Shown piece by piece: positions 34,449 through 60,598 of a stretch of 64,000 bases of DNA. Numbering within the stretch: the first letter of the stretch is position 1; the number at the start of each line of letters is the position of its first letter. The translations under genes were made by a program, and so were the position numbers. This stretch comes from Planctomycetota bacterium (lineage in GTDB: Bacteria; Planctomycetota; B15-G4), in NCBI GenBank assembly GCA_003644265.1, contig QNBX01000002.1, positions 15,785 through 79,784 of the forward strand, read 5' to 3'. A model generated the notes under the pieces. That model did no database searches and was not told where the DNA came from. It was given only the letters and a program-made list of their open reading frames with translations.

Positions 34449-34464
34449 AGCAAGCGCCGTGCCA
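34449..34464 (-). promoter_or_regulatory. Sigma-54 (-24/-12) promoter P1
   Basis: On the minus strand: TGGCACG-GCGC-TTGCT, a perfect match to the consensus TGGCACG-N4-TTGCW. Predicted start of transcription is near 34438, about 70 bases ahead of the exported protein's ATG at 34369. The palindromic activator site centred at 34523 lies 85 bases upstream of that start. Confidence 0.85.
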
Positions 34465-34513
34465 TCGGTGGAGGCGTCCGAGTGACCCGTCCCCCGGGTG
34501 CTGTGCTGGACGG

Positions 34514-34532
34514 CTGTCCAGGATCTGGACAG
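34514..34532. promoter_or_regulatory. Palindromic activator-binding site U1
   Basis: CTGTCCAG-GAT-CTGGACAG, a perfect 8+8 inverted repeat with a 3-base centre, positioned like an enhancer for promoter P1. An extra half-site, CTGGAC, lies just outside at 34506-34511. The same palindrome type recurs at four other intergenic places in the window. Confidence 0.75.
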
Positions 34533-34860
34533 TGCTGTAATCGCTGAGACAGCCCGTGCGGCAACCCAACCTACGGTGGGGTCGGTTGCTCCATGCTCCT
34601 GCGGGACAGGGGCGTGCGGCCATGGGCGAGAGAGTCCGCGGCCCGCCAGGATCCCAGGGGAGCTGCCATGACGTGCTTGGTGCGGGCCGACGAGAACGAG
34701 CGCATCGTCCAGCGCCTCCTGTCCCTCGGCGTGGAGTCGGGGGCTCGGCAGCACTTGCAGCCGGGGATCGACTCACGAAGCGCTGCCGATGCCGCGGTGC
34801 TGAGGGGCTTTGACACGCCTTTTCGCAGCGCAGACGGTTCGAGCATGCGAGCTCTCGCGC

Positions 34861-34941
34861 ACGGCACACGCGGCCGAGGCACGGCGCCACGCAGCGTGGT
34901 GGCCAAGCGGGATGAACCGGAAGCGTGGTCCGCTGCGAGGG
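34861..34941. repeat. Direct repeat R1 (81 bp), paired with R2
   Basis: Starts ACGGCACACGCGGCCGAGGC and is about 89% identical to R2 at 37594-37675 in the same orientation. It abuts the stop codon of the cupredoxin-propeller gene. On the minus strand both copies can be read in one frame as LA-A-x-H-A-S-G-S-S-R-L-A-T-T-L, with few amino-acid changes, so they may be pieces of a former coding sequence. Confidence 0.75.
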
Positions 34942-34942
34942 G

Positions 34943-37123
34943 TCAATGCACGACGTGGCTCACCGTGTTGGACAGGATGGAGTGGTCGCCCGCCGCGACG
35001 GCGGCCTGGAAGTGGGCCGCCAGTCCCGCGGCGGCTGCCGGCACGGTGAGGGTGAAGTTGGCCAGGCCGACGCCGTCGGCGGGCAGACTGGTCAGGATCT
35101 CGAATGGCGCAAGGAGTTCGAGGCACTGGCCACCCAGCACCCCGAAGCATGGCCCCGCGCCCGTCCCCGCCAGGCTGAAAAGGAAGTGGACGGTCTGGCT
35201 CGGCTCGGCACCCAGGGCGGAGAAGGTCGCCGGCGCCCCGGCAAGGAGCGGGTCGACGGTCAGGTTCAGTTCGTCGTGATGGCTCTCGGGGTTCAGTTGA
35301 TCGGGGGTCAGTAGCCCGATCCACCCCTCCACCTCTGCGGACAGCAGCCCGCTGCCGAGCATGGCGGCCGTCTGCTGCACCCAGCCGTCGTGGGTCAGGG
35401 GCAGCGGCTTGACGCCCTGCCCGCCTACGCCGTCGGTGACGCCCGCGCCATCGCTGCCGTTGGCCAGGAGCAGGGTGCCCACCGCGGCTGCGTCGCTGCC
35501 GTCGCCGTCGCCGTTGGGGTCGGGATCGATGATGGTGAGCACGTTGGCGTGCTGGTTGGTGACGTAGGCGTAGTAGCCGCCGCCGAGCTTGGCGCCCCAG
35601 TTCACACCGTGGGTGCCGGCCGGCGTGGGCACGTAGGCCACCACTTCGTTGAGCGATGTGTCGATGATGGCGACGTGGTCCGCCGAACCGGTGGTCGACG
35701 TGGGCACCGTCGTGAATGCCAGCACGGCCGTGGCGACCCACTGCTCGCTCGGGCTGACCGGCGTCTGGATGGGTACCTGCAGCGTGTGGTACAGGTCCTG
35801 GCCGCTCTGCCCGTCCGGCGTGAGCGTGACCGGGATGTTCGTCACCAGCGACAACTCGTCCACGTCGACGACGGTCACGAAGCCCGAGACGGCGTTGGCC
35901 ACGTAGGCCGTGTTCACCCCGTCCACGTGGCACTCGCCTACCGCCAGTGGCATGAGCAGGGCGGAGCGGAGCGTGTCGTCGGCGTCATACTCGAACTCGG
36001 CCAGCACCTGACCGCTGATGGTGTCCAGCACGCTGATTGAGCCCGCGGGGCCCATGCCCTTGAAGACGTTCGGCACGATGGCGCGATCACCCAGCCCGCA
36101 GGTGAGCCAGTGACCGTGCGGGTGCGTCTTGCCCGAGCCGGTGTCCACGCTGTCCTGGATGTCCAGACCGTCGGGGCCGTCCTCCACCTTGACCATGTCC
36201 TTGTCGGCGCTGAGCGGGACGGTCAGCCACCCGAACTCGGGCGACCCGGGCACGGGGATGGTGATGATGTGGGTGGGCGCCTCGCCCACCTTGATGCTGT
36301 CCACGATCTCGCCGCTCTCGCGGTCGATCTTGTTGATCCACTTCCCGAACCAGTTGCTGTTGTAGATCGTCTCGAGGCGGAAGTCGGCCCACATGTTGTG
36401 GGGGTTGTTCCACATGCCGTCGGCTTCGAGACCGTTGATCTCGCGTTCCACGGTCATGCTTGCGGCGTCCACCACCGTGATCGTCCCCGGCTTGGCCACG
36501 CCGCGGTCATCGGTCTGGCCCGGCACCGTCTCGAACTGGGTGTTGATCCAGACTTCGCCAACGCCGGGTACGCTCGGAATCACCTCGTCCTCAGGGCCGA
36601 GGATGTCCCACTTGGCGAGCTTGTCCTCGTCTGTGGCCGCCACGGTCGTCATGACCGCGAGCACGTCGAGGGCGGGAAGGGACGCCACCCCCAGGTGGCC
36701 CAGGTAGGGCAGCGAGCCCGAGGTGACATCGGGGATGTCCCCGTTGCCGTCGGTGACGGCCACGACTGCCGTCATGTACGGGTGGATCTTGCAGATGAGC
36801 ACGTACACGCCGGGCAGATCGAACTCAGCCGAGAGCGTCCCCTTCTGCGAGCTGTCCTGGTCGATATCGGCCGTGCTGCCCTCGGGCTTCACGAGCAGGG
36901 TGACCGTGTGTCGTGTGTTGGTGCAGCAGTTGCCGATCTTGAAGTCGACGCGATCGCCCGGCGTGATGACGCTCAGGGGCGAGCCGGTGGTGTCGCTGCG
37001 GAACCAGTTCCCCGGTTCGTCCGTGAGATGCATGGTGTCCGCGGCGCCCTGGGCCCACAGCGCGGCGGGAGTGGCTGCGACCATCATGGCGATACGCCAA
37101 GCGGCCTGGAACGGGATCCTCAT
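34943..37123 (-). CDS. Exported cupredoxin - beta-propeller fusion protein
   Basis: A 726-residue precursor. ATG 37123 has AGGAGG at ideal spacing, and a signal peptide ends near AALWAQG. Residues 28-125 are a cupredoxin-like domain with a complete type I copper ligand set: His72 (NTRHTV), Cys111, His114 and Met117 (LICKIHPYM). From about 150 to 610 runs a YVTN/YncE-like seven-bladed propeller (MWADFRLETIYNSNWFGKWI, VAYVPTPAGTHGVNWG, GGYYAYVTNQHANVLTIID). The end (LPADGVGLANFTLTVP and HFQAAVAAGDHSILSNTVSHV) looks like a diverged form of the module found in its neighbours. The domain set recalls nitrous oxide reductase with the order reversed, but the Cu-Z histidine pattern is not evident, so I do not assign that activity. 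Sigma-54 promoter P2 lies about 100 bases upstream. Confidence 0.82.
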   Translation of the reverse strand: MRIPFQAAWRIAMMVAATPAALWAQGAADTMHLTDEPGNWFRSDTTGSPLSVITPGDRVDFKIGNCCTNTRHTVTLLVKPEGSTADIDQDSSQKGTLSAEFDLPGVYVLICKIHPYMTAVVAVTDGNGDIPDVTSGSLPYLGHLGVASLPALDVLAVMTTVAATDEDKLAKWDILGPEDEVIPSVPGVGEVWINTQFETVPGQTDDRGVAKPGTITVVDAASMTVEREINGLEADGMWNNPHNMWADFRLETIYNSNWFGKWINKIDRESGEIVDSIKVGEAPTHIITIPVPGSPEFGWLTVPLSADKDMVKVEDGPDGLDIQDSVDTGSGKTHPHGHWLTCGLGDRAIVPNVFKGMGPAGSISVLDTISGQVLAEFEYDADDTLRSALLMPLAVGECHVDGVNTAYVANAVSGFVTVVDVDELSLVTNIPVTLTPDGQSGQDLYHTLQVPIQTPVSPSEQWVATAVLAFTTVPTSTTGSADHVAIIDTSLNEVVAYVPTPAGTHGVNWGAKLGGGYYAYVTNQHANVLTIIDPDPNGDGDGSDAAAVGTLLLANGSDGAGVTDGVGGQGVKPLPLTHDGWVQQTAAMLGSGLLSAEVEGWIGLLTPDQLNPESHHDELNLTVDPLLAGAPATFSALGAEPSQTVHFLFSLAGTGAGPCFGVLGGQCLELLAPFEILTSLPADGVGLANFTLTVPAAAAGLAAHFQAAVAAGDHSILSNTVSHVVH

Positions 37124-37230
37124 CGACTCGTCCTCCTGCAAGGCGGGTCGGCACCCTGGCCGCCCGCGTGTCCGGAGAGCCGCACACGACCACGTCGCGA
37201 GTGACACGCCTCTCCCGGTGGAGAAAGGGG

Positions 37231-37246
37231 AGCAAATGGTGTGCCG
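37231..37246 (-). promoter_or_regulatory. Sigma-54 (-24/-12) promoter P2
   Basis: On the minus strand: CGGCACA-CCAT-TTGCT. The invariant GG of the -24 element and GC of the -12 element are present at correct spacing, with two deviations from TGGCACG. Predicted start near 37220, about 97 bases before the cupredoxin gene's ATG. Palindrome U2 is centred 85 bases upstream, exactly as at P1. Confidence 0.72.
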
Positions 37247-37297
37247 ATGCCGAACGGGCCCCTCCGGGCCGGTCGATCGGGCCCGCGCGAGGGCCGC

Positions 37298-37312
37298 GTC
37301 CACGATGTGGAC
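37298..37312. promoter_or_regulatory. Palindromic activator-binding site U2 (variant)
   Basis: GTCCAC-GAT-GTGGAC, a perfect 6+6 inverted repeat with the same GAT centre as U1 but with C/G swapped at the innermost arm position. Placement relative to promoter P2 equals that of U1 relative to P1, which is the main reason to treat it as the same kind of site. Confidence 0.55.
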
Positions 37313-37470
37313 CGCCGTCTCGAATCCACACGGAGCTTCAGGGGCCCGATGTCACGCCACCGGAGCACCTCGCTCCCGGTCGGCGGGACGGTCCGTCGAT
37401 CAGCGAGCTGACCGATCAAGCGTGAGAGCAGCCGGTCCGGGCTCCGCCGGCCTCGTCCTCCGGCCGCCAC

Positions 37471-37602
37471 CTACGACGTGGTCGCGGACAGCCCGTTCGA
37501 CGCTGCGAAGCCCTTGGGGCGCCGGCGGTCGCGATCCAGTGCTGGATCCACACCGACATGCCTCCGGCGGATAGGAAGTCCAGCGCCCCGGGAACGGTCA
37601 CA
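37471..37602 (-). pseudogene. Remnant of a C-terminal module with a one-base frameshift
   Basis: On the minus strand one frame gives VTVPGALDFLSAGG then MSVWIQHWIATAGAP. After a single-base shift in the CCCC run near 37517 the next frame gives KGFAASNGLSATTS and TAG at 37471. Q-x-W, D/T-A-G-A-P and G-F-A-A-S-N-G-L are the landmarks of the module that ends the S8 protease and the 853-residue protein. No upstream domain remains; repeat R2 overlaps the 5' edge. It is the tail of another lost exported-protein gene. Confidence 0.65.
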
Positions 37603-37675
37603 CGCGGCCGAGGCAGGGCGCCAGGCAGCGTGGTGGCCAGACGGGACGAACCGGAAGCGTGGCCCGCTGCTAGGG
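37594..37675. repeat. Direct repeat R2 (82 bp), paired with R1
   Basis: About 89% identical to R1, same orientation. R1 and R2 bracket a 2.65-kb unit consisting of the cupredoxin-propeller gene, its sigma-54 promoter and its palindrome. Both copies lie 3' of minus-strand genes (R2 is 125 bases past the sulfatase-like gene). Unequal crossing over between them would delete or amplify the unit. Confidence 0.75.
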
Positions 37676-37800
37676 CATGGACGGGGCCGCGGTGTTCGCG
37701 GGGAGGGGCAGCGGGGCGGCCCGCGCGAGGGCGACGCGGGGCGGACGGTGTGTGGCCATGAGCTGGTCGCAGAGAATGGTCGGGCCGTGGTGGTCGTTCA

Positions 37801-39807
37801 TTATCGCACGTATCCCAGAGCGCGCAGGGCGGCCACGTCGTCCCCGCTGAGAGCGGATCCTTCCTGCGTGGACCAGGCGTTGTGTGTCGTCAGTTCGCGG
37901 CCGAGCGCATCGAGGCGTCGGGCCAGTTCCGCCAGCTCGCCCTGCTCCGCCTGCCCGTGTGTGCTGGCGCCGAGCACCTCGAGCACGGGCGCGCTCTCCC
38001 CTGGATCCTGCGCCAGGTCGAACAGACGCGACATCACGCGGTAGCCCTCGCTGACGGCGCCGTCGCCCCCGAGTTCGAGCAGCTTGGCCACCTCGGAACG
38101 GGACAAGAGCGGGTCGGCGTGCTGGGCGGGCAGCTGCTTGAACTGCGTCCGGGCGTCGAACAGCACCGGGATGCCGCCGATCCAGGCCGTACCGCCGCCG
38201 CTCTCGTCGACCACCAAGCGGCTCAGCGCTCCTCGCAGCTCCACATCGATGCGCTCTGCTTGTGCGTAGCCCTTGGCGCTCTGCACGGCGAACACGCCGT
38301 CCATCAGCTCGCCCCTGAGCTTGAGCGCGCGGCCGGGGCCCAGGTCTGCCAGCACGGCCAGCGAACCGCCCAGGCGCACATCGGCGGACCAGCGCACCGG
38401 GACGCCGGCCAGGCTCATGCCCCCGTCGGTCGCGAGCAGGAATCCCTTGAGTTCCGTGGGATCGTCTTCGTCCTCGTCGCGCAGCTTGAGTGCTCGCGCC
38501 CGACGCGGCGAGAGCCCGGGTTCCAGTTCGGCCTCCCAGCGCCCGCCCCGGCGCAGCCGGGCCACACCGGCCGACTCACGTGCTCCTGGCGGCGGGCGGA
38601 AGCTGCGCACGAGTTTGAGGTCGCCCACGCGCAGCGCCTGCAGGTAGACATCGTCACCCTTATGCTCGGAGAACAGCTCGGTCTGGCGTCGCGGGTGGCG
38701 CAGTCGGTCCGTGGACCAGCGCTGCGCCGCTTGCCCTGCCGTCAGGCCGGCGGCTGACAGCAGCGTGGCGTACACGTCGGTGAGCCGGACGGGTTGCTCG
38801 ATCTCAGCGTGCGGGATGCCCGGTCCCGACAGAAGGAACACGGCGTGGGTCAGGTTCTGCCACAGGGCGTGGCCGTGTCCCAGGCGGCCGTGCTCAAGGA
38901 ACTCCTCGCCATGGTCGGAGACCACGGCCACGATCGGGCGGCGCTCGGGCGTGCGCTGCTGCAGAGCAGCGAACAGCAGCCCCAGCTGGTCGTCCACGTA
39001 GCGCAGGGCGCCGTCGTACAGGTCTGTGAGCTGGCCGAGCTCCGTCTCGCTCAACTTCAGCTCGCCGTCGTTGATGGCATCGTGCGTGGCGCGCCACTCG
39101 TCGTGTCGCACCAGGGCCAGGGTCTTCTCGTCGGTAAAGCGCAGCGCGGCCTCGTCCGGCACGTCGTAGGGCCAGTGGGCGTCCAGGATGTGCAGGTACA
39201 GGAACCAGGGGCGATCCCCTTCGCGCTGGTCGAGCCAGGCCAGCGCGGCGGCGCGGATGTCGGCCGCGTCGCCGGCGCGATCGACGTACACATCGAAGCC
39301 CTGCTCGAAGCCCAGGCCCGTGCGCAGCTGCGCGTTGCGTACGAAGGCCGCCGTGGCGTATCCGGCCTCGGAGAAGGCCTCGGCCAGGGTGTGCGCTTCG
39401 GGCCCCAGCACGTCGGTGGTCAGCACGCCCTGCCGACGGGTGCTGCCCTCGTACACGCCGTGGATGGCGGGGTGGGTCCCGGTCAGGAAGGACGGCACCG
39501 AGGGCTTGGTCCAGCCTGATGAGGCCACGGCCTGCCGGAACATCAGCCCCTGCGCGGCGAGAGCGTCCAGCGTGGGCGTGGTGTTGTGCTCGCTGTAGCC
39601 GGAACAGCCCAGGTGATCGGCGCGCACCGTGTCAAGGCAGATCAGCAGCACGTCGGGCTGGCGCATGGCAGCTGCGGTGGGCGTGGAAGACTCGGTGTCG
39701 CAGCTCGCGAGCGTGCCCAGCAGGCACGCGAGCAGGGTGGCGGCCCTGGTTGCGGGCCGAAGTGCGCGCAGGGCACGCGCTTCCGTCGAGGGCGCTGCCG
39801 CGTTCAT
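37801..39807 (-). CDS. Sulfatase-like (alkaline phosphatase superfamily) lipoprotein
   Basis: A 668-residue predicted lipoprotein (ATLLACLLGTLASC, lipobox Cys36). The alkaline-phosphatase-superfamily core is clear: metal site VLLICLDTVRADHLG (Asp59), the nucleophile loop SSGWTKPSVPSFLTG, LYLHILDAHWPYDVP and second metal site VVSDHGEEFLEHG. True sulfatases have Cys or Ser in C/S-x-P-x-R, modified to formylglycine. Here the position is Thr100 in T-K-P-S-V, with Val replacing the conserved Arg. A phosphatase, phosphodiesterase or phosphotransferase using Thr as nucleophile is therefore more likely than sulfatase activity. It overlaps the beta-helix lipoprotein gene by four bases (ATGA) and is the last gene of the sigma-54 operon from P3. 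Confidence 0.85.
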   Translation of the reverse strand: MNAAAPSTEARALRALRPATRAATLLACLLGTLASCDTESSTPTAAAMRQPDVLLICLDTVRADHLGCSGYSEHNTTPTLDALAAQGLMFRQAVASSGWTKPSVPSFLTGTHPAIHGVYEGSTRRQGVLTTDVLGPEAHTLAEAFSEAGYATAAFVRNAQLRTGLGFEQGFDVYVDRAGDAADIRAAALAWLDQREGDRPWFLYLHILDAHWPYDVPDEAALRFTDEKTLALVRHDEWRATHDAINDGELKLSETELGQLTDLYDGALRYVDDQLGLLFAALQQRTPERRPIVAVVSDHGEEFLEHGRLGHGHALWQNLTHAVFLLSGPGIPHAEIEQPVRLTDVYATLLSAAGLTAGQAAQRWSTDRLRHPRRQTELFSEHKGDDVYLQALRVGDLKLVRSFRPPPGARESAGVARLRRGGRWEAELEPGLSPRRARALKLRDEDEDDPTELKGFLLATDGGMSLAGVPVRWSADVRLGGSLAVLADLGPGRALKLRGELMDGVFAVQSAKGYAQAERIDVELRGALSRLVVDESGGGTAWIGGIPVLFDARTQFKQLPAQHADPLLSRSEVAKLLELGGDGAVSEGYRVMSRLFDLAQDPGESAPVLEVLGASTHGQAEQGELAELARRLDALGRELTTHNAWSTQEGSALSGDDVAALRALGYVR

Positions 39808-42098
39808 GGCTGGGGCTCCGGGTCGAGGGGCAGGGCCACGGGGGCGTCCAGCGGCAGGCCATCCAGTGAGCGCAGCTCCCTGTGCAGCTCCAGCACCAGC
39901 GCGCCGCTCGGCCAGCCTCCGGCGGGAGGCGCGATGTGCACCTGGCCGGCCTGCACGAAGGCAGAGGTCGCCAGCACGCCGTCGGCACTCGTGCGCACCA
40001 CCACGCTGGCGGCGTGTACCGAGGCGGGGTCGGGCTCGCCGCCCGAGAATCCGAGCATCAGCGTTTCGCCAGGGCCCAGGCCGTCCGGGAGCGGCGGGGT
40101 GAGGGAGGCCAGGAAGAAGGGCGGGGGCGTCCGGCCCGGCGCGCCCACGCTGCCGGGGCGACGGACGGGGGCGATGTCCACGCTCGGCCCGCCGGGCGCG
40201 GCCATGCCCGTGTCGTCCGCGAGGCCGCCTGGCAGTGCGCGGTAGTCCTCCACCACCCCGGCGCCGGGAGCGAAGGCGCTCAGGACGGCGGGGGGCACCA
40301 CGCTGGTGGGGGCGGGGGCCACGAGGATCTCACCCACGGCGCCCAGGCCCACCAAAGCCCGCGCCACGCCGTCATCCGACAGCTCAAGCGGGCCGCTCCC
40401 GTCAGGCTCCTCTTGCACCGTCAACAGCTCGGGTGTGTCGGGCGACCAGTCTGTGACCCGGGTGTACAGCAGCGGCAGGCGCGCCAGGGCCGGAGCGCTG
40501 GCCTCCTCCAGGGCGAGGCTGCGGTGCGCGTTGCCCTGCTCCCAGGCTGACACTTGCAGCCACCCGTGGGTCGAGACCGCCATCACTTTGGAGGCACCCT
40601 CGCCCAGCAGGCCTGCCTGAGCGTTGCCGGCCAGCAGCGCTCCGCTCAACAGCAGTGCGCCGCGGCCCTCCGAGGCCCGGGCCCCGGCGCCGCCGTTGGC
40701 GGTCAGCGCGCAGTCGGCGGCGGTCAGCAGCACGTCCGCGTCGGCCGAGGTGAGCGAGAGGCCGTCGCCGCCGTTGCCGTGGGCGAGCAGCGTGGACAGG
40801 TTGGCCTGTGACGGCCCGTCCAGGTCGAGCTGCAGCCCGTGCCCGAGATTCTCCCGGCACACCAGGCCCTCGAGCAGCAGCGTGGCACGGCCGCCCGAGG
40901 CCGCGTCGAAGTCGACGTCGACGAGGCAGCCCGCGGCGCCGTTGCGCTCGAAGCGGTTGCCTTTCAGGGTCACCTCGAAGCGTCCGATGCCGACCGTCAG
41001 CGTGGGCGCCATGTCGAGGTCGAGCCCTTCGGTGCCGTTGCCGGCGAAGCGGCTGTCGCAGATCACCACATGCCCCACATGCGCGGCGCCCACCCTCAGG
41101 TCGTCGATGTCCAGGCCTTCTTGCACGTTGCTATCGAAGCGGCAAGCGCGCACGTCCAGATCGAAGGAGCCGTTGGCGGAGAAACCCTCGGCGCCGTTGC
41201 CGACCGAGAGGCTGCCGAGCACCACCACGGGCACCGGCGCCACGAAGGGCACGCCCTTCCAGCGCAGGCCGGGTCCGGCGGCGCCGACCATGGCGCACAT
41301 GCGCACTTCCAGCGGGGCGTCCAGGCCTTGCAAGCCCGAGCTGGCGACGCCGCGGCCGTCCAGCACCAGGCCGTCCAGGATCACGAGCCCGGCTCCCGAT
41401 GCGGCGGCGACGGGCTGGCCGGGCACGCCCTGCAGCACGGTCAGGTGCAGCTCCGGGTCGCGGGTGGCCAACTCGAAGCCCGGGGCGAAGCCGCCGTAGA
41501 CGGCGCTGAGCGGGAACATGGGGTAGGCGCCGGGCGGGTAGATGCCCTCGGCCACCCAGAGGTTGGCGCCGCCCATGAGCAGGCTGTCGATCAGCGCAGG
41601 GAACAGGCCGTTGTACGCCCTGGCGGGTGAGCTGCCGTCGCCGCCGTCGGCCGCGGCGATGTCCACAAACACAGGCGGCGCCAGGCGCGCGCTGAGTACG
41701 GCGCCTGCGGGCAGCCAGTCGCCGTCGTCCTGACCCAGCCCAAGACCCACACGCAGCTCATCCCCGGGCGAGAAACCCGTGACGATCAGGCCGTTTCCCT
41801 CCAGCGGAGAGAGCAGCGGCTCGCGCTCGTACAGCGGCTCGCCGGGCGCAGCCACGAAGAGCCCCAGGATCAGCGTGTCGTCCTGCGCCACCCAGCGCAC
41901 GGCCAGGCGATCGGCGGCCGGCACCAGCGAGACCACGGTGGCGGCGGACGGCGGCGGCGCCGGGTTGAGGGGCGGCAGGGTCACTCCCGCCTGGACCTGG
42001 ACGCTGGAGCCGCCGCCGCTCCCTGAGAGCCGGCCGCACGCGACCAGCGACCAGGGAAGCAGCGCCAAGAGCAACAGGGCCTGTGCTCGTCGGTTCAC
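39804..42098 (-). CDS. Right-handed beta-helix lipoprotein
   Basis: A 764-residue predicted lipoprotein (LLLLALLPWSLVAC, lipobox Cys21). After a Pro-rich linker and a fibronectin-like segment (about 50-140) comes a sequence typical of parallel beta-helix proteins. It begins VFVDIAAADGGDGSSPARAY and LWVAEGIYPPGAYPMF, followed by repeated coils such as VVICDSRFAGNGTEGLDLDM and GNRFERNGAAGCLVDVDFD. No polysaccharide lyase catalytic motif is recognisable. The C-terminus has a beta-sandwich-like stretch (SVVVRTSADGVLATSAFVQA). It lies 16 bases after the Carboxypeptidase-regulatory-repeat gene and overlaps the sulfatase-like gene. It is probably a cell-surface scaffold or polysaccharide-binding protein. 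Confidence 0.8.
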   Translation of the reverse strand: MNRRAQALLLLALLPWSLVACGRLSGSGGGSSVQVQAGVTLPPLNPAPPPSAATVVSLVPAADRLAVRWVAQDDTLILGLFVAAPGEPLYEREPLLSPLEGNGLIVTGFSPGDELRVGLGLGQDDGDWLPAGAVLSARLAPPVFVDIAAADGGDGSSPARAYNGLFPALIDSLLMGGANLWVAEGIYPPGAYPMFPLSAVYGGFAPGFELATRDPELHLTVLQGVPGQPVAAASGAGLVILDGLVLDGRGVASSGLQGLDAPLEVRMCAMVGAAGPGLRWKGVPFVAPVPVVVLGSLSVGNGAEGFSANGSFDLDVRACRFDSNVQEGLDIDDLRVGAAHVGHVVICDSRFAGNGTEGLDLDMAPTLTVGIGRFEVTLKGNRFERNGAAGCLVDVDFDAASGGRATLLLEGLVCRENLGHGLQLDLDGPSQANLSTLLAHGNGGDGLSLTSADADVLLTAADCALTANGGAGARASEGRGALLLSGALLAGNAQAGLLGEGASKVMAVSTHGWLQVSAWEQGNAHRSLALEEASAPALARLPLLYTRVTDWSPDTPELLTVQEEPDGSGPLELSDDGVARALVGLGAVGEILVAPAPTSVVPPAVLSAFAPGAGVVEDYRALPGGLADDTGMAAPGGPSVDIAPVRRPGSVGAPGRTPPPFFLASLTPPLPDGLGPGETLMLGFSGGEPDPASVHAASVVVRTSADGVLATSAFVQAGQVHIAPPAGGWPSGALVLELHRELRSLDGLPLDAPVALPLDPEPQP

Positions 42099-42113: not shown

Positions 42114-43661
42114 TCAGTCACAGAAGCTGATCGAGACCGCGTTGCTGAACGCGAGCCCGAAGGGAGTGACGCCCGCGTCTTGCACCACGAACTGGGTGTA
42201 GGCTGTGGCGCCGAGGAACGAGAGGTCGTTGGGAACGGCTGCGGGAATGCTCAGGGCGCCTGCGCCGGGTGCGCCCGGCGCACCGCCCAGCGGCAGGAAG
42301 GACAGGAAGAACGGCAGGCTCATGTCCACCAGCAGGGTGCCGCCCTTGAAGGGCACGGCGGACGGACCGAAGCCGAGAATCCAGCCGACGGTTGAAGCGC
42401 CCACGCCGTTCGACAGCTCCAGCGTGTAGTCGGGGTTGCCCAGGCGGGGCGCGCCGCCGGAGCTGCCGTACACGGGGACGAACCCGCCGGTGCCGGGCGT
42501 GCCGGCGCCATAGGCGCTGTGGAAGGCGCAGTCGCCCAGGGTGCCGTTGAGCGTGGTGCTGCCCGCCACGAGCACCGATGTCTGCTCCAGCGTGCTGTAG
42601 GGCAGGGCGTAGGGCGGCTCGAACTCGACGTTCCAGGTTCCGTTGGGGACGACGACCTGGTAGTGCCCGCCGCCGTCGGTCTTGTCATTGCAGGTGGTGA
42701 GCTTGAACCCTGTCGCGCTGTCACGCACGTCGATGTCGACGCCGGCCAACCCGCCGCCGCCCGGGGCGCTGACGGTGCCCTGAAGCACCACGCCGAACTG
42801 GAGCAGGGTCAGGCCCAGGTTCACGTCGGCGCCGGCCACCACCACGGGGAACGACTGCCCCACCAGCTGCGAGCCAAACGTGGGGCAGACCTCGAACTCG
42901 TAGATTCCGTCGGGCACCACCACGGAGGCCAGCCCCGCGGCGCTCGTGTTGTCCTGGGGCGTGTAGAGCGTCTGGCCTGTGACGGTGTCGACGGTGTCGG
43001 TGTCGGCTCCCGGGACCGGCAGTCCACCCGGCCTCTGCACCAGGGTGATGATGCGGTGACCGTCCGGCAGCACCACGTCGCCGAGGTTGAAGTCGACGCT
43101 GGCGGCGACATCCAGAGCTTGTGACGCCAGCGTGGTGAACGTCACGGGTGTGGTGTCGAATCGGATCTCGAGCGCGCCCAGCGGAACGGCCAGGATGAAG
43201 TTGCCGAGCGCATCGGTGTTGTCACCGATCAGGTCGAGGTTGGTCCCCGTGGCCAGGTCGATCACGTCGAGGTTGACGCCTGCCACCGGCACGCCCTGGG
43301 CCGTCACGCAGCGTCCGGTCATGGTCACGCCCTGGAGCAACTCGACCGTGCCCAGGTTGCTTGTGCCCGCGACGGTGACGTCGACCAGGGTCGTGATGAG
43401 GTTGGGCGGGCTCGGGATGAAGACGATGTTGAACACACCTCCGGGGATGACGGTCGTGCTGAAGCTGCCGTTGAGGTCCGTGCCGCCGTTGAAGACGTCG
43501 GGGTCGCCCCCGCTGCCCTCGTTGCACACGTTGATGTTCACTCCGGCCTGGGGCACGCCCAGGGCATCGACCACAACTCCGGTGATGAGCTGGGCTGGGA
43601 CGCCGCCAGCGAGGGCGGCCAGGGCGAGGGCCCCGAGGGCAAACTGGGAGAGGGGGCGCAT
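42114..43661 (-). CDS. Exported protein with Carboxypeptidase-regulatory-like repeats and shared C-terminal module
   Basis: A 515-residue exported protein (signal peptide LGALALAALAGGVPA before QLITG). It contains about four tandem CarboxypepD_reg-like beta-sandwich repeats of roughly 85-100 residues. Each has a V-x-G-V-P-V-A-G-V-x-V-core and a Y/F-x-V-x-P-P closing strand (GRCVTAQGVPVAGVNLDVID, GHYQVVVPNGTWNVEFEPPY). The last 130 residues are the shared module (SAVPFKGGTLLVDMSLP, then TQFVVQDAGVTPFGLAFSNA). Such repeats usually bind sugars or act as spacers. First gene of a three-gene operon driven by sigma-54 promoter P3. Confidence 0.82.
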   Translation of the reverse strand: MRPLSQFALGALALAALAGGVPAQLITGVVVDALGVPQAGVNINVCNEGSGGDPDVFNGGTDLNGSFSTTVIPGGVFNIVFIPSPPNLITTLVDVTVAGTSNLGTVELLQGVTMTGRCVTAQGVPVAGVNLDVIDLATGTNLDLIGDNTDALGNFILAVPLGALEIRFDTTPVTFTTLASQALDVAASVDFNLGDVVLPDGHRIITLVQRPGGLPVPGADTDTVDTVTGQTLYTPQDNTSAAGLASVVVPDGIYEFEVCPTFGSQLVGQSFPVVVAGADVNLGLTLLQFGVVLQGTVSAPGGGGLAGVDIDVRDSATGFKLTTCNDKTDGGGHYQVVVPNGTWNVEFEPPYALPYSTLEQTSVLVAGSTTLNGTLGDCAFHSAYGAGTPGTGGFVPVYGSSGGAPRLGNPDYTLELSNGVGASTVGWILGFGPSAVPFKGGTLLVDMSLPFFLSFLPLGGAPGAPGAGALSIPAAVPNDLSFLGATAYTQFVVQDAGVTPFGLAFSNAVSISFCD

Positions 43662-43746
43662 GGGGAGACTCCGTAGAGGCGATGGGGTCCGCCGTTGGGG
43701 CGGTGGTGAGGGGCGCGGTTGGTGGCGCTTGTCCGCTGGTCCAAGT

Positions 43747-43762
43747 AGCAATGCCCGTGCCA
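43747..43762 (-). promoter_or_regulatory. Sigma-54 (-24/-12) promoter P3
   Basis: On the minus strand: TGGCACG-GGCA-TTGCT, a perfect consensus match. Predicted start near 43736, 75 bases ahead of the first gene of the secreted-protein operon. Palindrome U3 is centred 118 bases upstream. Confidence 0.85.
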
Positions 43763-43844: not shown

Positions 43845-43863
43845 GTGACCAAATTCTGGACAC
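43845..43863. promoter_or_regulatory. Palindromic activator-binding site U3 between divergent sigma-54 promoters
   Basis: GTGACCAA-ATT-CTGGACAC; on the other strand GTGTCCAG-AAT-TTGGTCAC. One arm is consensus and the other has two changes. Its centre is 118 bases from the predicted start of P3 and 117 from that of P4, so a single activator complex could serve both operons. Confidence 0.65.
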
Positions 43864-43944
43864 GCCCACTGGAACGTGGACGAAGCGGCCGTTTCCAGCC
43901 CCTCCAACGGCGGGCGGCGGGCCCGGAGACCGTTCTTGGCTGAT

Positions 43945-43960
43945 TGGCACCGGGGTTGCT
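43945..43960 (+). promoter_or_regulatory. Sigma-54 (-24/-12) promoter P4 of the surface-glycan operon
   Basis: TGGCACC-GGGG-TTGCT, one base from consensus, with correct spacing of the GG and GC pairs. Predicted start near 43971, 46 bases ahead of the ATG of the first glycosyltransferase gene. Confidence 0.8.
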
Positions 43961-44016
43961 GTAAGAGCTGCTTGAGCCCGGAGAGGCTCCGCTCCCCACC
44001 CCCTTGGCTGCTTCCC

Positions 44017-50540: not shown

Positions 50541-51583
50541 GCTCAGAGCCCCCTCTTCCTCCGCTCGCGAACTCCCAGGTCCTGTTGCGCGTCGATCCCC
50601 GTCGGGGCGGCGTGGTGTTCCGGCAGTCCGGGCAGCCCACGGGCGAAGCGTTGTGGACACGCGAGCTCGACGGCGAGTCGCGGCTCACGGCGCCGGAGGA
50701 CGACGAGCGCCTGCCGCTCGGCCGCGCGCTGCCCGAGCTGCGCCGCCACGCGGACGTGCGCGTGCTGGCCTACCGCCCTGAGCGCCGGCTGGTGCTGCGG
50801 GTGGATGACGGTCAGGCAGCACGGGTCCTCAAGGGCTACCGGCGCAAGCAGCTGGAGACGGCCTTCACGCGCCACGAGTGGGCAGCGGGAGTGCTGTCAG
50901 ACGGGCCGCTGCGGGCGCCGCCGTCGCCGGAGCTGGACGAGTCCCTGTGCGCCCTGCGCTGGCCTGCGCTGTCGGGCCGCGCCCTCGATCTGCACCCGTC
51001 GGGCAGCGCCATGTTGTTTCGCCTGGGCGCGGGGCTGGCGCAGTTTCAGCAGGGCACCCCCTGGCCCGACGCGCAGCAACATGATGTCCGCTCCGAGGTG
51101 GCCGTCACCGATCGCATGGCCGAGCTGATGGGGCGCGCCGAGATGGCTCTGCCCGCGGGCTGGCGCAGCGTGCGCCAGGGGCTCGTGCCAGGCCCCGAGC
51201 ACGCCGGCGTGAGCCTCGTGCCGACCCACCGGGACCTGCACGACGGCCAGCTCCTGGTGACACCCGACGGGCTGGTGCTGCTCGACTACGACCTGCTCTG
51301 CCTGGCCGACCCCGTGCTCGACCTGGCCAATCTGATCGCGCACCTTCGGCTGCGGGAGCTGCAAGGTCATGCCGGCGCCACCGACGCCAGCGTCGATCAG
51401 TGCGGCCGGGAGCTGCTGGATGGATTCGGTGCGGAGGCGACGCACGGATTGCGCCGCCGTCTGCGCTTCTACCAGGCCAGCAGCTTCCTGCGCCTGGCGC
51501 TGGTGTACGCCCTGCGCCCGCCCTGGCGGCACCTCTCGCGCGAACTCGTCGCGGTGGGGGAGCATTGCCTCCACGAGGTGTGA
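50537..51583 (+). CDS. Aminoglycoside-phosphotransferase-fold (APH-like) kinase, second copy
   Basis: A 348-residue APH-like protein. The N-lobe includes VLAYRPERRLVLRVDDGQAA and RVLKGYRRKQLETAF (candidate ATP-binding Lys). The catalytic loop is THRDLHDGQLLVTPDG (His-Arg-Asp instead of His-Gly-Asp), with VLLDYDLLCLADPVLDLANL supplying the metal-binding Asp. The two APH-like products are clearly related in fold but diverged in sequence, so the duplication is old. The next gene starts two bases after its stop, at a TTG. Confidence 0.85.
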   Translation: MSSEPPLPPLANSQVLLRVDPRRGGVVFRQSGQPTGEALWTRELDGESRLTAPEDDERLPLGRALPELRRHADVRVLAYRPERRLVLRVDDGQAARVLKGYRRKQLETAFTRHEWAAGVLSDGPLRAPPSPELDESLCALRWPALSGRALDLHPSGSAMLFRLGAGLAQFQQGTPWPDAQQHDVRSEVAVTDRMAELMGRAEMALPAGWRSVRQGLVPGPEHAGVSLVPTHRDLHDGQLLVTPDGLVLLDYDLLCLADPVLDLANLIAHLRLRELQGHAGATDASVDQCGRELLDGFGAEATHGLRRRLRFYQASSFLRLALVYALRPPWRHLSRELVAVGEHCLHEV

Positions 51584-51584
51584 G

Positions 51585-53540
51585 TTGCGCCTGGCCCTCG
51601 CTCTGCTCGCCGTGGTGCTGCTGCCCCTTCCGGGTTGGGCCCAGGACGGCGTCGGCACGCAAGAGCCTGATGACCCGAGCGCGGAGGACATCGCCGGGGA
51701 TCTCGCCGAGGACGGCGTGGTCGACCCGAATGGCAGCGCGGCTGCTGACGCGGGCGATGACGCGCCCCAGGGCGCCGCCGGTCCAGGCGCGCCGGGCAAC
51801 GGTCCGGGGGATTCTCGAGCGCTGGGCATGAGTGCTGACGAACTGCGCGACGCGCTGGCGATAGGCCACTGGGTGCGCGTCAAGGGGCAGCTCGACCGAC
51901 TCGGTTGGTTCGTGGCCCAGGAACTGGAGATCCGGCAGCCCGAGGGCGAGGAGGTGCTGATCGGCAAGGTGGGGCTGGTGGTGAAACGGGTCGATCGCTT
52001 CCGAGTGTTCGGCCTGCCCATCCACGTCACCGAGCGCACGAACATGCAGGGCATCGACTGGGACGGTCTGCGCGGCGCGCGCGTCAAGGTCGAGGGGCAC
52101 TACCGCGGCCCCTCCAAGTTCTCGGCGCGCGAGGTCACGCCGCGACCAGGCGGCGGGCGCGACCGCATCGAGGGGCGCGTGGACGCCATCGAACGTCGCG
52201 GCGAGGCGCTCGTGCTGCGCATCATGGCCTTCGAGGTGCTGCTGCCCGCGGACGCGTTGATCGAGTCCGAGGATCTGATCACCAGTCTGGGCCTGGCGCC
52301 CGCTCCGGACGTGCTCCTGCCACCTGTGCAGAGGGACGACCCCGAGAACTACATCCCCATCAGCATCGCCCTGACCGAGACCCTGGGGCTCGGTATCCAG
52401 ATCGAGTCGAAGGAGGCCCACGAGCGCAACTTCGACCTCGACCGGGACAAGCCGGGCAACAAGCGCCAAGCACAGCTGTCGGCCAAGGCGCAGCTGGTCT
52501 GGCAGCCCAGCGCCGACGGCTTCGCCCTGGCGCGCTTTCGCTGGGATCGCGGCCGTGTGCGCGACCAGGACGACCCCAACACGTCGTTCCGCGATGGCGA
52601 CGTGTCCGAGCTATATGGCTATCTGCGACAGCCCTTCGGCGGCGGCGTCGACCTGCAGGTGGGGCGCCAGGACTTCGACGACCCGCGCGAGTGGATCTAC
52701 GACGAGAACCTGGACGCGGTGCGCGTGCACGTGCTGCGGCAGGACTTCCGGCTGGAGCTGTCGAGCAGCACGCGCCTGACCGAGAGCAGCCGCGCCAACC
52801 GTGAGACCGACAACTGGATCGCGTACCTGTCCAACGACGACGTGGAGCGTCACCTGGCCGCGTGGGTGGTGGACCGCCGCCGCTCGGGCGAAGAGCGCTC
52901 CAAGCCACTGCACGCGGGCGTGCGCATGCTGGGTCAGTGGCTCCCGCAGCAGTCGGTCTGGGCCGAGCTGTCCGCGGTGCGTGGCTATGAGGAGGGTGTC
53001 GATCTCCGGGGCTGGGCCGTGGACCTGGGTACCACCTGGGATCTGGAGCCGTACTACGTCACGCTCGGTTTCGCCCACGGCTCGGGGGACGATGACCCCT
53101 TCGACGACGTCGACACGTCGCACCGGCAGACCGGGCTGCACGACAACAACGGCCGCTTCGGCGGCGTGACGTCGTTCAAGTACTACGGCGAGGTGCTGGA
53201 GCCCGAGCTCTCCAACCTGGACGTCTACACGGCTGGCCTGGGCATGCGTGTGGGGCGTCGCTCGTCGCTCGACTTGGTGCTGCATAAGTACCGGCTGGTC
53301 GAGACGTATCAACTGCCGCCGGGTTCCACGGCCTCGTCGCCGCTGCTGAACTCGAGCCTGCGCGCGCGCCCCGACGGGATCCACGACGACCTGGGCTGGG
53401 AGGCCGACTTGGTGCTCGGCAGCCGCGAGTTGAAGGACTGGGACCTGGAGCTGGTGCTGGGCTGGTTCTCGCCTGGCGATGCCTTTCCGGGGGCCGATCC
53501 GGCCTGGGTCTGGCGCACCCAGCTGCGCTACCGCTTCTGA
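51585..53540 (+). CDS. AlgE-like (alginate export family) outer-membrane barrel with N-terminal OB-like domain
   Basis: A 651-residue precursor. The TTG at 51585, with GAGGTG five bases upstream, is the only start that yields the signal peptide RLALALLAVVLLPLPGWA before QDG. About residues 75-250 form a DUF5666-like beta domain (VRVKGQLDRLGWFVAQELEI, VKVEGHYRGPSKFSAREV). From about 280 to the end come amphipathic strands typical of the alginate export family (LYGYLRQPFGGGVDLQVGRQ, RVHVLRQDFRLELSSSTRL, SLDLVLHKYRLVETYQLP). It ends in Phe (WRTQLRYRF) as barrels do. It probably conducts the glycan across the outer membrane, completing the pathway from the ABC exporter. Confidence 0.85.
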   Translation: MRLALALLAVVLLPLPGWAQDGVGTQEPDDPSAEDIAGDLAEDGVVDPNGSAAADAGDDAPQGAAGPGAPGNGPGDSRALGMSADELRDALAIGHWVRVKGQLDRLGWFVAQELEIRQPEGEEVLIGKVGLVVKRVDRFRVFGLPIHVTERTNMQGIDWDGLRGARVKVEGHYRGPSKFSAREVTPRPGGGRDRIEGRVDAIERRGEALVLRIMAFEVLLPADALIESEDLITSLGLAPAPDVLLPPVQRDDPENYIPISIALTETLGLGIQIESKEAHERNFDLDRDKPGNKRQAQLSAKAQLVWQPSADGFALARFRWDRGRVRDQDDPNTSFRDGDVSELYGYLRQPFGGGVDLQVGRQDFDDPREWIYDENLDAVRVHVLRQDFRLELSSSTRLTESSRANRETDNWIAYLSNDDVERHLAAWVVDRRRSGEERSKPLHAGVRMLGQWLPQQSVWAELSAVRGYEEGVDLRGWAVDLGTTWDLEPYYVTLGFAHGSGDDDPFDDVDTSHRQTGLHDNNGRFGGVTSFKYYGEVLEPELSNLDVYTAGLGMRVGRRSSLDLVLHKYRLVETYQLPPGSTASSPLLNSSLRARPDGIHDDLGWEADLVLGSRELKDWDLELVLGWFSPGDAFPGADPAWVWRTQLRYRF

Positions 53541-53585: not shown

Positions 53586-53684
53586 GGAGCGCCGGAGGGA
53601 CAGGCGGGGTGGCGGGTCTGCTGCCGTGCGCACCCTGGCATCCGGCGCTTCTCTGGCGCGTGTCTTGAAATCAGTCAAGGACTG

Positions 53685-53713
53685 TTGACAGATCGTGTCC
53701 AGATGTTAGACAT
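53685..53713 (+). promoter_or_regulatory. Promoter of the activator gene with palindrome U4 between -35 and -10
   Basis: A perfect -35 hexamer TTGACA (53685-53690) is followed at 16-17 bases by an extended -10-like TG-T-TAGACA (53704-53712). The palindrome GTGTCCAG-ATG-TTAGACAT (53695-53713) fills the spacer and -10. Protein bound there would block RNA polymerase, so this looks like an autorepression site of the same protein that uses U1-U5. The gene start is 31 bases downstream. Confidence 0.6.
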
Positions 53714-53743
53714 AAACATCTCGATCCTCGTGGAGTCAGCCAG

Positions 53744-58609: not shown

Positions 58610-58623
58610 CACGGGCGCGCGTG

Positions 58624-58649
58624 GCGCTCGGGTTGCGCGGGCCGAGCGC
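58624..58649. terminator. Bidirectional hairpin between the activator gene and the propeller gene
   Basis: GCGCTCGG (58624-58631) pairs perfectly with CCGAGCGC (58642-58649) around a 10-base loop, directly between the two convergent stop codons. No T-run on either strand. Confidence 0.6.
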
Positions 58650-60404
58650 TCAGGGCGTCAGCGCAAAGCCCACGCCCTTGGGCACGGCCAGCTTCTGGGC
58701 TGCGGCGGCCTGGGGGAAGGCGCCGAAGATGTAGGGCCCGCCGGCAACGCCGAGGCCCGCCAGCAGCTGCCCGTCGGTCGAGAAACCAAGCGCCGAGGTG
58801 ACATCGAAGGGCTGGTCCCATGCGAGGGACAGCAGCCCCGATGGCAGGGCCACTCGCACCAACAACTCAAGGCCCGGTCCGGCGCTGGCCACCAGCGCGG
58901 CGCTGGTCCCATCGCGACTGGCCACCATGCGGTCCAGCGTCACGCCCGGGGGCACGCTGCCCAGCACCATCGGCGCGCCGCCCGCAGGGCTCAGCACCAA
59001 CTGCTGCGTTGGGTCGCCGCTGGGCAGCTCCGGCTCGGTGATCAGCAGCACGTGCTCTCCGGCGGCCAGCAGGATGGGTGAGGCCAGCAGGGGCCCGGTC
59101 AGTCCGCTGACGCTCTGCGCTCCGCCCAGCGGTACCGACAGCATGGCCACGTCGCCGCCGTCCGGGTCGACCTCCAACAGCAGCCGACTGGAGTCAGGGC
59201 TCAGCGTGGCGGCCTGGATCTCGAGCTCACCCGCCACCAGGAAGGGCGGCAGGGTCTGGCCCGAGGTGCCGGTGAGGTTGGTCAGATCCTGAGTGGCGGT
59301 GTCCATCAGGAACACGTCGGCTGAGCCCACCGAGGTGAGTGGGTCGCCCAGGCCGGGCAACTCGCCGGCGCTGAATACCAGCAACGTGTCGGCGATGAAC
59401 CCGAGCACGCCGACATTGTCGATCGTGTCCGTGAAGTTGGCGTCGGACGTGACCTGCACGGGTGTGGGCGCCTGGTCGAGGCGCTGCACGAAGAGTTCGC
59501 GCGCGTCCATCTGCGTGCGGCGCCAAGCGACGCACAGCGCGTCGTCGGACAGGACCAGCAGGGGGCCGGTCGGGTCGTCGTAGCCGGGCGTGTCCAGCGG
59601 CCCCGGGTTGCCGGAGATGATGCTCACCGCGCCCGCCGAATCCACCACCATGAGGCGTCGCCGGTTGGCGCTGAGTTCGGTGACCACGGCCACGCCGCGG
59701 CCGTCGCCGCTGACGGCCAGTTCGGGCAGCAGCACCTCGCCCGTCTGGAGTGGGAGTGCGATCGGTTGCGCGTTGGTGTTCGACAAGAGGTCGACGTGGT
59801 AGAGCGCGCCCTCGGCCACGAACCACGCGCCGTCCGCTCCCACGCGCAGCGAGTCGGGGGCGACATCGAGCGGTACGAGCAGCGCGGTCAGGTTGACGGC
59901 CGGGGCGTCGGTGCCGAGGTCGAGCAACAGCACGTCGCCGCCCGAGGCCACGGGCGTGGCCAGCAAGGCGCGGCTACCGGTCGTGTCGATCCCGACTCCC
60001 GGGAGCAGGCCGGGGCCGTCCACCTCGGCGGTCGACGCGCGCAGCGAAGCACTGCCGTCGGTGCGCAAGTGCAGCATGGCCGTGACGCCGGCCCGGGTCA
60101 CGCGGTGCAGGCTGCCGTGCAGGGGCAATCGGATGCCGGGCGCCGGACCATCCAGGCTCCACGGGCGATCGCTGCGCAGTCGCGCGGAGACCGGATGGCC
60201 CACCAGCGGCGTGGGCAGGAACGCGAGCTGGGAGGTCGCGATGCTGGCGTCGCCCGTGGTCAGATCGATGGCGTACAGGGAGTACGAGCCGTTGACGTGC
60301 TGACGCACGACGAAGGCGGTCTGGGCGCCGGCGCTCGGGGCCCAGGCCGCGAGCAGCGCGAGGCACAGCCCGGCACACAGCATGGACAGGCGGGCGAACG
60401 ACAT
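58650..60404 (-). CDS. Exported beta-propeller protein (TolB/PD40-like repeats)
   Basis: A 584-residue exported protein. ATG 60404 has GAGGTG seven bases upstream and gives the signal peptide LCLALLAAWAPSAGA before QTAF. The mature part is a series of WD40/PD40-like blades with the pattern D-G-x-x-x-x-V/L-x-x-x-D-x-x-T/S (AVSGDGRGVAVVTELSANRR, TLSPDSSRLLLEVDPDGGDV, FSTDGQLLAGLGVAGGPYIF). Such proteins are usually periplasmic or surface-located scaffolds. It lacks the module seen in other secreted proteins of the window. Expression is predicted from sigma-54 promoter P5 with palindrome U5, placing it in the same regulon as the glycan operon. Confidence 0.78.
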   Translation of the reverse strand: MSFARLSMLCAGLCLALLAAWAPSAGAQTAFVVRQHVNGSYSLYAIDLTTGDASIATSQLAFLPTPLVGHPVSARLRSDRPWSLDGPAPGIRLPLHGSLHRVTRAGVTAMLHLRTDGSASLRASTAEVDGPGLLPGVGIDTTGSRALLATPVASGGDVLLLDLGTDAPAVNLTALLVPLDVAPDSLRVGADGAWFVAEGALYHVDLLSNTNAQPIALPLQTGEVLLPELAVSGDGRGVAVVTELSANRRRLMVVDSAGAVSIISGNPGPLDTPGYDDPTGPLLVLSDDALCVAWRRTQMDARELFVQRLDQAPTPVQVTSDANFTDTIDNVGVLGFIADTLLVFSAGELPGLGDPLTSVGSADVFLMDTATQDLTNLTGTSGQTLPPFLVAGELEIQAATLSPDSSRLLLEVDPDGGDVAMLSVPLGGAQSVSGLTGPLLASPILLAAGEHVLLITEPELPSGDPTQQLVLSPAGGAPMVLGSVPPGVTLDRMVASRDGTSAALVASAGPGLELLVRVALPSGLLSLAWDQPFDVTSALGFSTDGQLLAGLGVAGGPYIFGAFPQAAAAQKLAVPKGVGFALTP

Positions 60405-60474
60405 GGTGGGCACCTCGACGCGCGAAATGAGCTTGGCAGGACGGCAATTCTAGCCCATCCACGAGAGACTGGCA

Positions 60475-60490
60475 TGCAACCGGCGTGCCA
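60475..60490 (-). promoter_or_regulatory. Sigma-54 (-24/-12) promoter P5
   Basis: On the minus strand: TGGCACG-CCGG-TTGCA, a perfect consensus match. Predicted start near 60464, 60 bases ahead of the propeller gene. Palindrome U5 is centred 125 bases upstream. Confidence 0.85.
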
Positions 60491-60579
60491 AACCGGCGAG
60501 CCCTCTCGTGCTCGCGGAAGCACGCTCTCAGGCCGTTCGTGCGGCCCAGGTGCTGCGTTTGGCGCGAATCGTGGATGGT

Positions 60580-60598
60580 CTGTCCAGATGCTGGACTC
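60580..60598. promoter_or_regulatory. Palindromic activator-binding site U5
   Basis: CTGTCCAG-ATG-CTGGACTC: the left arm and seven of eight bases of symmetry match U1, with the right arm imperfect at its last two positions. Positioned upstream of promoter P5. Confidence 0.65.

Follow-up and report, generated by a model that had tools for sequence, protein, structure and literature searches.

A predicted sigma-54 regulon of secreted and surface proteins marked by a shared palindrome in a Planctomycetota bacterium

Results

Promoter elements and palindromes of the locus

The stretch of DNA analysed here, called the window, comprises 64,000 bases with 71% G+C from a Planctomycetota bacterium (contig QNBX01000002.1). 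This report concerns five candidate sigma-54 promoters in the window (U1 to U5), the palindromes upstream of them, the genes that they precede and the gene of a probable activator, all of which are listed in Table 1. U4 heads a run of genes for glycan synthesis and export, U3 heads a divergent run of genes for secreted or lipid-anchored proteins, and U1, U2 and U5 each head a single secreted-protein gene. The sites, their pairing, their conservation and the gene content were computed, and the signal peptides and lipoboxes of the six secreted or lipid-anchored products in Table 1 were judged by eye.

The promoter elements were scored against TGGCACG-N4-TTGCW and the palindromes against the type TGTCCAG-N3-CTGGACA. 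Significance was evaluated with dinucleotide-preserving shuffles of the window, 100 for single patterns and 200 for pairs. All five -24/-12 elements reported in the first-pass annotation were recovered at their positions, and four of them (U1, U3, U4 and U5) are indeed perfect or one base off; GG at -24 and GC at -12 with the conserved spacing, the feature that defines membership of the sigma-54 promoter class, were found. When up to two mismatches are allowed, the promoter pattern occurs 14 times in the window against a shuffle mean of 12.7, which is not above chance, but with no mismatch it occurs 3 times against a mean of 0.01. For the palindrome with up to two mismatches, the corresponding counts are 4 and 0.35. 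Pairs of a palindrome (up to two mismatches) and a sigma-54 site (up to one mismatch) separated by 30-120 bp number 4 in the window and 0 in the shuffles. U2 is outside these four pairs and is the weakest site by sequence alone. Its palindrome at 37297 has the fifth best score in the window and is also a training site of the scoring matrix. The support for U2 as a putative site comes from the matrix score and from the conservation described below.

The palindromes are located 50-90 bp upstream of their -24/-12 elements, and the distances of 85, 85, 118, 117 and 125 bases previously given from palindrome centre to predicted start agree with a hand calculation from the coordinates. It had also been claimed that a palindrome lies upstream of every promoter. 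All five promoters are served, but by four palindromes, because the one at 43846 is common to U3 and U4. A further palindrome, absent from the earlier list, precedes the activator gene (53696-53712), and no -24/-12 element was seen between it and the activator start.

Table 1. Coordinates of the promoter elements, palindromes and genes in the window.
Feature	Position	Strand	Remarks
U1 -24/-12 element	34449..34464	-	perfect match; ahead of secreted-protein gene 31808-34564, likely ATG at about 34369
U2 -24/-12 element	37231..37246	-	2 mismatches; ahead of 34943-37303, likely ATG at about 37123
U3 -24/-12 element	43747..43762	-	perfect match; heads secreted-protein operon 43751-37801
U4 -24/-12 element	43945..43960	+	1 mismatch; heads glycan operon
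U5 -24/-12 element	60475..60490	-	perfect match; heads propeller-like secreted-protein gene
Palindrome TGTCCAGGATCTGGACA	34515..34531	no strand	0 mismatches; U1
Palindrome CGTCCACGATGTGGACC	37297..37313	no strand	4 mismatches to strict consensus (hand count), 15.5 bits; U2
Palindrome TGACCAAATTCTGGACA	43846..43862	no strand	2 mismatches; common to U3 and U4
Palindrome TGTCCAGATGCTGGACT	60581..60597	no strand	1 mismatch; U5
Palindrome TGTCCAGATGTTAGACA	53696..53712	no strand	2 mismatches; centre 40 bp ahead of activator ATG (53744)
Probable cognate activator, 1621 aa	53744..58609	+	kinase-like, TPR, GAF, sigma-54 AAA (GAFTGA), Fis-type helix-turn-helix
U1 target, secreted, no Pfam family	31808..34564	-	Pfam scan; signal peptide by eye
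U2 target, secreted, no Pfam family	34943..37303	-	Pfam scan; signal peptide by eye
Sulfatase-family protein, lipobox-like N-terminus	37801..39807	-	Pfam; by eye
Weak beta-helix match, lipobox-like N-terminus	39804..42098	-	Pfam; by eye
CarboxypepD_reg-domain secreted protein, first gene after U3	42114..43751	-	Pfam; N-terminus by eye
GT28-like glycosyltransferase, first glycan-operon gene	44020..45183	+	Pfam on longer open reading frame 43876-45186; weak NCBIfam matches
Two GT4 glycosyltransferases (EpsE-like and related)	44766..47470	+	Pfam, NCBIfam
MsbA-like ABC exporter	47467..49254	+	Pfam, NCBIfam
Two genes similar to APH-type small-molecule kinases (second weakly)	49191..51583	+	Pfam, NCBIfam
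Alginate_exp-type outer-membrane barrel	51369..53540	+	Pfam
U5 target, secreted all-beta (propeller-like) protein, convergent with activator	58650..60413	-	predicted fold; signal peptide by eye

The probable activator

The sigma-54-interacting AAA domain of the probable activator (PF00158, E=1.1e-64) contains both the Walker A sequence GPSGAGK and the GAFTGA motif. It is followed by a C-terminal Fis-type helix-turn-helix, or HTH (PF02954, E=7.6e-13), and Pfam gave no Response_reg match in this protein. An AAA domain with Walker A and GAFTGA acts on the sigma-54 polymerase in the family of enhancer-binding proteins, and since the window activator has both motifs, it would be expected to act in the same way. 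Its relatives P0002-P0019 have 41-65% identity, with similarity across 95-100% of the query, and GAFTGA is present in 14 of the 19 aligned rows (alignment A1, window row included). Sixteen open reading frames of relatives were also chosen by their HTH, one of which (L268) is the G352 frame again; 12 of them have GAFTGA, 3 have GAYTG[AS] and one, L003, has neither. By pattern search, the L003 frame (10001-14722) lacks the Walker A lysine as well as GAFTGA, and upstream of the propeller gene at this locus no good -24/-12 element and no significant palindrome were found. This one locus fits a loss of sigma-54 control once the motor is lost.

In the kinase-like domain, the position of the ATP-anchoring beta-3 lysine is occupied by Arg in each of the 12 sequences covering this position; the Pfam kinase match begins only at profile position 98. 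The window protein keeps HRDIKASN and has DLD in place of DFG; in G356, G162b and G392b, DFG is present and the HRD arginine is missing. Because of the Arg at the lysine position and the DLD of the window protein, we regard this domain, with moderate confidence, as a pseudokinase sensor rather than a phosphorylating enzyme. In the recognition-helix region, most of the closer relatives have SRAGLY, then A, T, K or E, then K; one has SRGGLYAK, and among remoter relatives SRSGLYTK or SRAK[IV]YQR occurs.

Conservation among relatives

The best genome-contig matches of the activator are mostly metagenome-assembled genomes labelled Planctomycetota. Fourteen loci of relatives were compared, namely seven from six genomes (G001, G002, G003, G004 twice, L003, and G006, which is split over two contigs) and seven further ones. 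A homologue of the propeller-like gene adjoins the activator gene in 13 of the 14, the exception being G352, and it is the most constant neighbour of the activator. In one metagenome-assembled genome (OFTM221; L034 and L001), the activator is present in two full-length copies, and a separate propeller homologue adjoins each of them.

When the first glycan gene was searched in 392 sampled Planctomycetota genomes, relatives at E<=1e-30 were found in 44 of them. A break in the scores sets apart 11 genomes (E<=1e-93), and all 11 have the cluster of glycan and secreted-protein genes, so the cluster is present in at least 11 of 392 genomes, having been looked for in the 11 above the break. A twelfth copy occurs in G005 (L182). 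The secreted-protein genes and the glycan operon are divergent in 10 of the 11 cluster relatives and in line in G368; the sulfatase homologue comes after the glycan operon in 7 of the 11; and gene 49191-50540 has no match in G330. Ten of the 11 genomes with the cluster carry a full-length activator relative, namely G006 (where it is split over two contigs), G356, G392, G162, G103, G380, G352, G360, G294 and G368, with an identity of 33-38% in most and higher values in G006 and parts of G380. In the phylum sample, activator relatives at E<=1e-110 occur in 6 of 79 genomes (centre G002 included); the comparison between 6/79 and 10/11 is approximate since six candidates were scored per genome in the base-rate sample, and the remoter relatives are putative orthologues. 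From the other side, G001-G004 have no match to the first glycan gene, yet the palindrome accompanies their activator and propeller genes.

The nearest relative, G006, has counterparts of all of U1-U5 with both signals. The glycan operon is present there with the CarboxypepD_reg gene divergent from it, and the G006 homologue of the U1 target (74%) is preceded by a perfect -24/-12 element and a weaker palindrome (11.0 bits, p=0.028). The U2 target had no match in the 14 activator or cluster loci first compared; its homologue is on another G006 contig (L154, contig C20), with 76% identity over 498 residues in a compared stretch that ends inside the gene, and is preceded by a -24/-12 element with one mismatch and a palindrome.

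The palindrome in homologous regions and across genomes

A scoring matrix was built from the five window palindromes, and each homologous upstream region was compared with 500 shuffles of itself. It was found that 31 of 36 regions from other Planctomycetota match the matrix at p<0.05 (Fisher 1.5e-36, which overstates the significance, as the set includes close relatives and two shared intergenic regions). When the genomes to which the motif search had pointed are omitted, 23 of 28 regions do so. With 5,000 random windows from the same loci as the control, 27 of 34 regions are above the 95th percentile. Upstream of the activator gene, the matrix matches at p<0.05 in 11 of the 12 regions of relatives; two of these regions also belong to the propeller gene.

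A dyad search that uses no window sequence was also performed, in which 3,840 dyads were ranked. In 34 regions, including several motif-led ones, GTCC-N7-GGAC ranks first (11 of 34 regions). In the 24 regions left without the motif-led ones, TGTC-N9-GACA, which is the outer part of the palindrome, ranks first (5 regions versus 0.14 expected; z 6.1, compared with a largest z of 5.2 among 100 shuffles), and GGCA-N7-TGCC, in third place, reflects the -24/-12 element.

At the level of whole genomes, the strict palindrome-promoter pattern was counted 14 times, in 8 of the 392 genomes, versus 2 times for the reversed control. Some of the 14 overlap as tandem copies, and where the gene context was read (outside G001), the pairs in G108 and G321 do not resemble promoters of secreted-protein genes. 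A looser linked pattern, GTCC-N7-GGAC with GGC-N7-TTGC, gave 56 occurrences in 15 genomes (30 forward, 26 reverse) versus 44 for the controls (17 and 27), and it was rejected as too loose. In G006, a palindrome scoring at p<0.03 lies within the 200 bp upstream of 8 of the 40 near-consensus sigma-54 sites, compared with 2 of 40 downstream; two of the eight (L164 and L169) are oddly spaced and may be chance, and many of the 40 sites are probably chance because the reversed pattern gives 51. The best sites of the matrix scan of G006 include two loci on other contigs, L154, which is the U2-target homologue described above, and L160.

L160 (contig C65, 1451-1687) consists of divergent sigma-54-like elements around one palindrome, GGTCCAGAATCTGGACG. 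Secreted-looking products are encoded on both sides, and these had no match among the window genes compared.

A set of 36 regions, 31 from relatives and 5 from the window, was examined for a second palindrome beside the best one. Sixteen of them have a weaker copy at a distance of 19-21 bp, versus 2.2 expected under uniform spacing, and the score of this copy is low in several cases. On the best side, the mean score is highest at 20 bp; for the plain mean, only 12 bp, a spacing that makes the copies overlap, gives a higher value. The upstream regions of the activator mostly have other spacings (22 to 47; one at 21). A spacing of 19-21 bp would suit two dimers on one face of the DNA.

Products of the target genes

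Among the families found with Pfam and NCBIfam, the glycan cluster (44020-53540) has no polymerase or chain-length gene. The predicted structure of the U5 protein is all-beta, with a mean predicted local distance difference test score (pLDDT) of 83. Tricorn and DPP-IV, two peptidases with propellers, are among its best structural matches, with low template modelling scores (TM-scores) of 0.28-0.44 by query.

Elsewhere in the window, a TonB-dependent receptor, a YfiR/HmsC-like protein and a CHASE8-HAMP hybrid histidine kinase with receiver domains are encoded in one run (11018-16248), which we take to resemble a YfiR-type signalling cluster.

Discussion

Interpretation and rival explanations

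We consider it quite likely that the window holds a dedicated, partly dispersed sigma-54 regulon driven by the activator 53744-58609 through palindrome enhancers. The palindromes would be the enhancer sites, or upstream activating sequences, of this activator, whose Fis-type HTH would recognise TGTCCA-N5-TGGACA as dimers, frequently with two dimers spaced by two helical turns, and its GAFTGA-bearing AAA domain would remodel the sigma-54 polymerase at the -24/-12 elements 50-90 bp downstream. The glycan synthesis and export operon (U4), the divergent operon of secreted and lipid-anchored proteins (U3) and the single genes of U1, U2 and U5 would thus be switched on jointly, with the kinase-like N-terminal domain sensing rather than phosphorylating. 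The palindrome 40 bp before the activator start codon (53696-53712) probably serves self-regulation, most likely repression, because no -24/-12 element was seen between site and start codon. Binding, the direction of regulation and the signal are what we infer from these patterns. The first-pass annotation had proposed that one activator coordinates the glycan operon and at least six secreted or lipid-anchored proteins, and this proposal gains support from the recurrence of the operator, the promoter type and the targets in Planctomycetota, as well as from the activator relative that is found adjacent or elsewhere in the relatives' genomes.

Several results weigh against this interpretation. 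The 36 homologous regions are not independent, as they include close relatives and the two shared intergenic regions, and eight of them lie in G356, G392 and G162, the genomes to which the motif search pointed, where all eight pass. The five failing regions are the divergent region of G352 (0.130), the propeller regions G004b (0.104), L003 (0.118) and G380 (0.146), and the activator region of G001 (0.112); besides, the activator region of G352 passes only as a rounded 0.050. For the propeller gene, no convincing -24/-12 element was found in L003, G004a, G103, G380 and G336, and in G001 a good element faces the divergent gene instead. In the dyad search over 24 regions, GTCC-N7-GGAC falls to fourth place (4 regions versus 0.33 expected). 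The activator match in G330 is partial (residues 1128-1615), the base rate of 6/79 may be too low because six candidates were scored per genome, and within the window the tandem site occurs only at U3/U4. The palindrome alone, with two mismatches, was counted 27, 4, 16, 16 and 43 times in the genomes of five relatives versus 58, 22, 38, 23 and 55 times for the reversed control, and a global regulon marked by the palindrome alone was therefore rejected. In a partial version of the genome-wide scan by which the earlier proposal could be refuted, the palindrome alone thus shows no excess in these five relatives, and the linked pairs outnumber their reversed control across the 392 genomes.

Further observations against it bear on who binds the palindrome. 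It may be a sigma-54 enhancer whose binder is another GAF-AAA-Fis activator encoded elsewhere, the neighbouring gene being merely linked. Such activators are numerous, with 3 to 30 matches per genome at E<=1e-60 in the nine genomes searched. G214 lacks a full-length relative of the activator (P0001) and has palindrome-promoter pairs of the same class at L194 (contig C481) and L187 (contig C28). The pair on C481 is directly downstream of a shorter activator gene, and shorter relatives may share the operator. Against this stands the way in which the palindrome tracks the activator gene (the 11 of 12 upstream regions) and its usual partner even where the glycan cluster is missing, together with the presence of an activator relative in 10 of the 11 genomes that have the cluster, and we judge another binder to be unlikely.

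A repressor or another sigma-70-type regulator could also own the operator, with the -24/-12 matches being accidental. The chance-level count of two-mismatch sigma-54 sites would suit this, as would the absence of a visible -24/-12 element between the palindrome and the activator gene. P0015-P0019 (41-44% identity) point in the same direction and are at odds with a uniform sigma-54 role, because they keep the HTH and have lost GAFTGA and the Walker A lysine, which suggests that sigma-54-independent forms of the activator exist on related DNA sites. However, the excess of perfect elements in the window, the joint recurrence of palindrome and promoter in homologous intergenic regions, and the Walker A and GAFTGA motifs of the window activator make this explanation very improbable. 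An artefact of chance or of the G+C-rich composition has the least claim, to the point of being nearly negligible: single two-mismatch palindromes are common genome-wide and fall below the reversed control, but the dinucleotide shuffles, the random-window controls, the window-free dyad search and the conservation make chance very unlikely.

A wider form of the regulon hypothesis is put forward only tentatively, and we would sooner doubt it than adopt it. Under it, Planctomycetota would possess a switch that has been conserved for a long time: a sigma-54 activator of pseudokinase-TPR-GAF type would recognise a tandem GTCC-N7-GGAC enhancer and activate a glycan export machine that has not been described before (two GT4s, the GT28-like enzyme, the MsbA-like exporter, two small kinases and an AlgE-like barrel) with its secreted partners, while the side branch P0015-P0019, having lost the sigma-54 motor, would use the same DNA sites otherwise.

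The sigma-54 regulon interpretation names a specific operator, a set of promoters and a list of targets for a kinase-fused sigma-54 activator, and it ties a conserved uncharacterised glycan cluster to secreted partner proteins. The operator, the activator and the targets are now open to direct testing.

Comparison with known systems

Among the matches listed from the open-licence literature searched, no description of the palindrome was found. Large kinase/GAF/AAA/Fis proteins of Sorangium (P0038-P0040) have the same kinase, TPR, GAF, AAA and Fis families and a similar length, but their identity of 41-42% covers only about 31% of the query. We know of no operator or target for proteins of this Sorangium type.

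The general survey of sigma-54 as a controller of the bacterial exterior (Francke 2011, PMC3162934) shares the theme of polysaccharide, lipoprotein and surface genes, and the term 'planctomycet' does not occur in its main text. A comparison of sigma-54 regulons across phyla (PMC12316311) includes Planctomycetota and cites a 2004 paper by Studholme and Dixon on Pirellula sp. strain 1; it states that activator specificity was not available for all organisms compared, and its text has no occurrence of 'palindrom'. In Aquincola tertiaricarbonis (PMC9850573), a PEP-CTERM gene with a predicted enhancer upstream was found by experiment to be RpoN-dependent, which resembles our case in the sigma-54 control of a surface-related protein and differs from it in belonging to a proteobacterial PEP-CTERM system.

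The closest parallel is the PrsK/PrsR control of PEP-CTERM genes, described for Proteobacteria only (Haft 2006, PMC1569441). There, a 17-nt activator motif, sometimes repeated, lies on average 63 nt before the -24/-12 element of exported-protein genes, in association with exopolysaccharide genes and a Fis-type sigma-54 activator, and the window arrangement resembles this system in these features. The differences are equally clear, since the PrsR motif ends in TTTACA whereas the window operator is a GGACA palindrome, PrsR is a response regulator with a histidine kinase whereas the window activator is of kinase-like/TPR/GAF type, and PrsR targets are PEP-CTERM proteins whereas the window targets have no PEP-CTERM match (six by Pfam, three of them scanned by NCBIfam, with the C-termini read by eye). 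Neither an exosortase nor a PEP-CTERM family was found by Pfam among the 30 window proteins scanned, and membership of the PrsR/PEP-CTERM system is ruled out by the missing receiver domain of the activator and by the C-termini of the targets. Our best reading is a sigma-54 regulon of the cell exterior that would work like the PrsR/PEP-CTERM control, with an operator of its own and an unusual activator.

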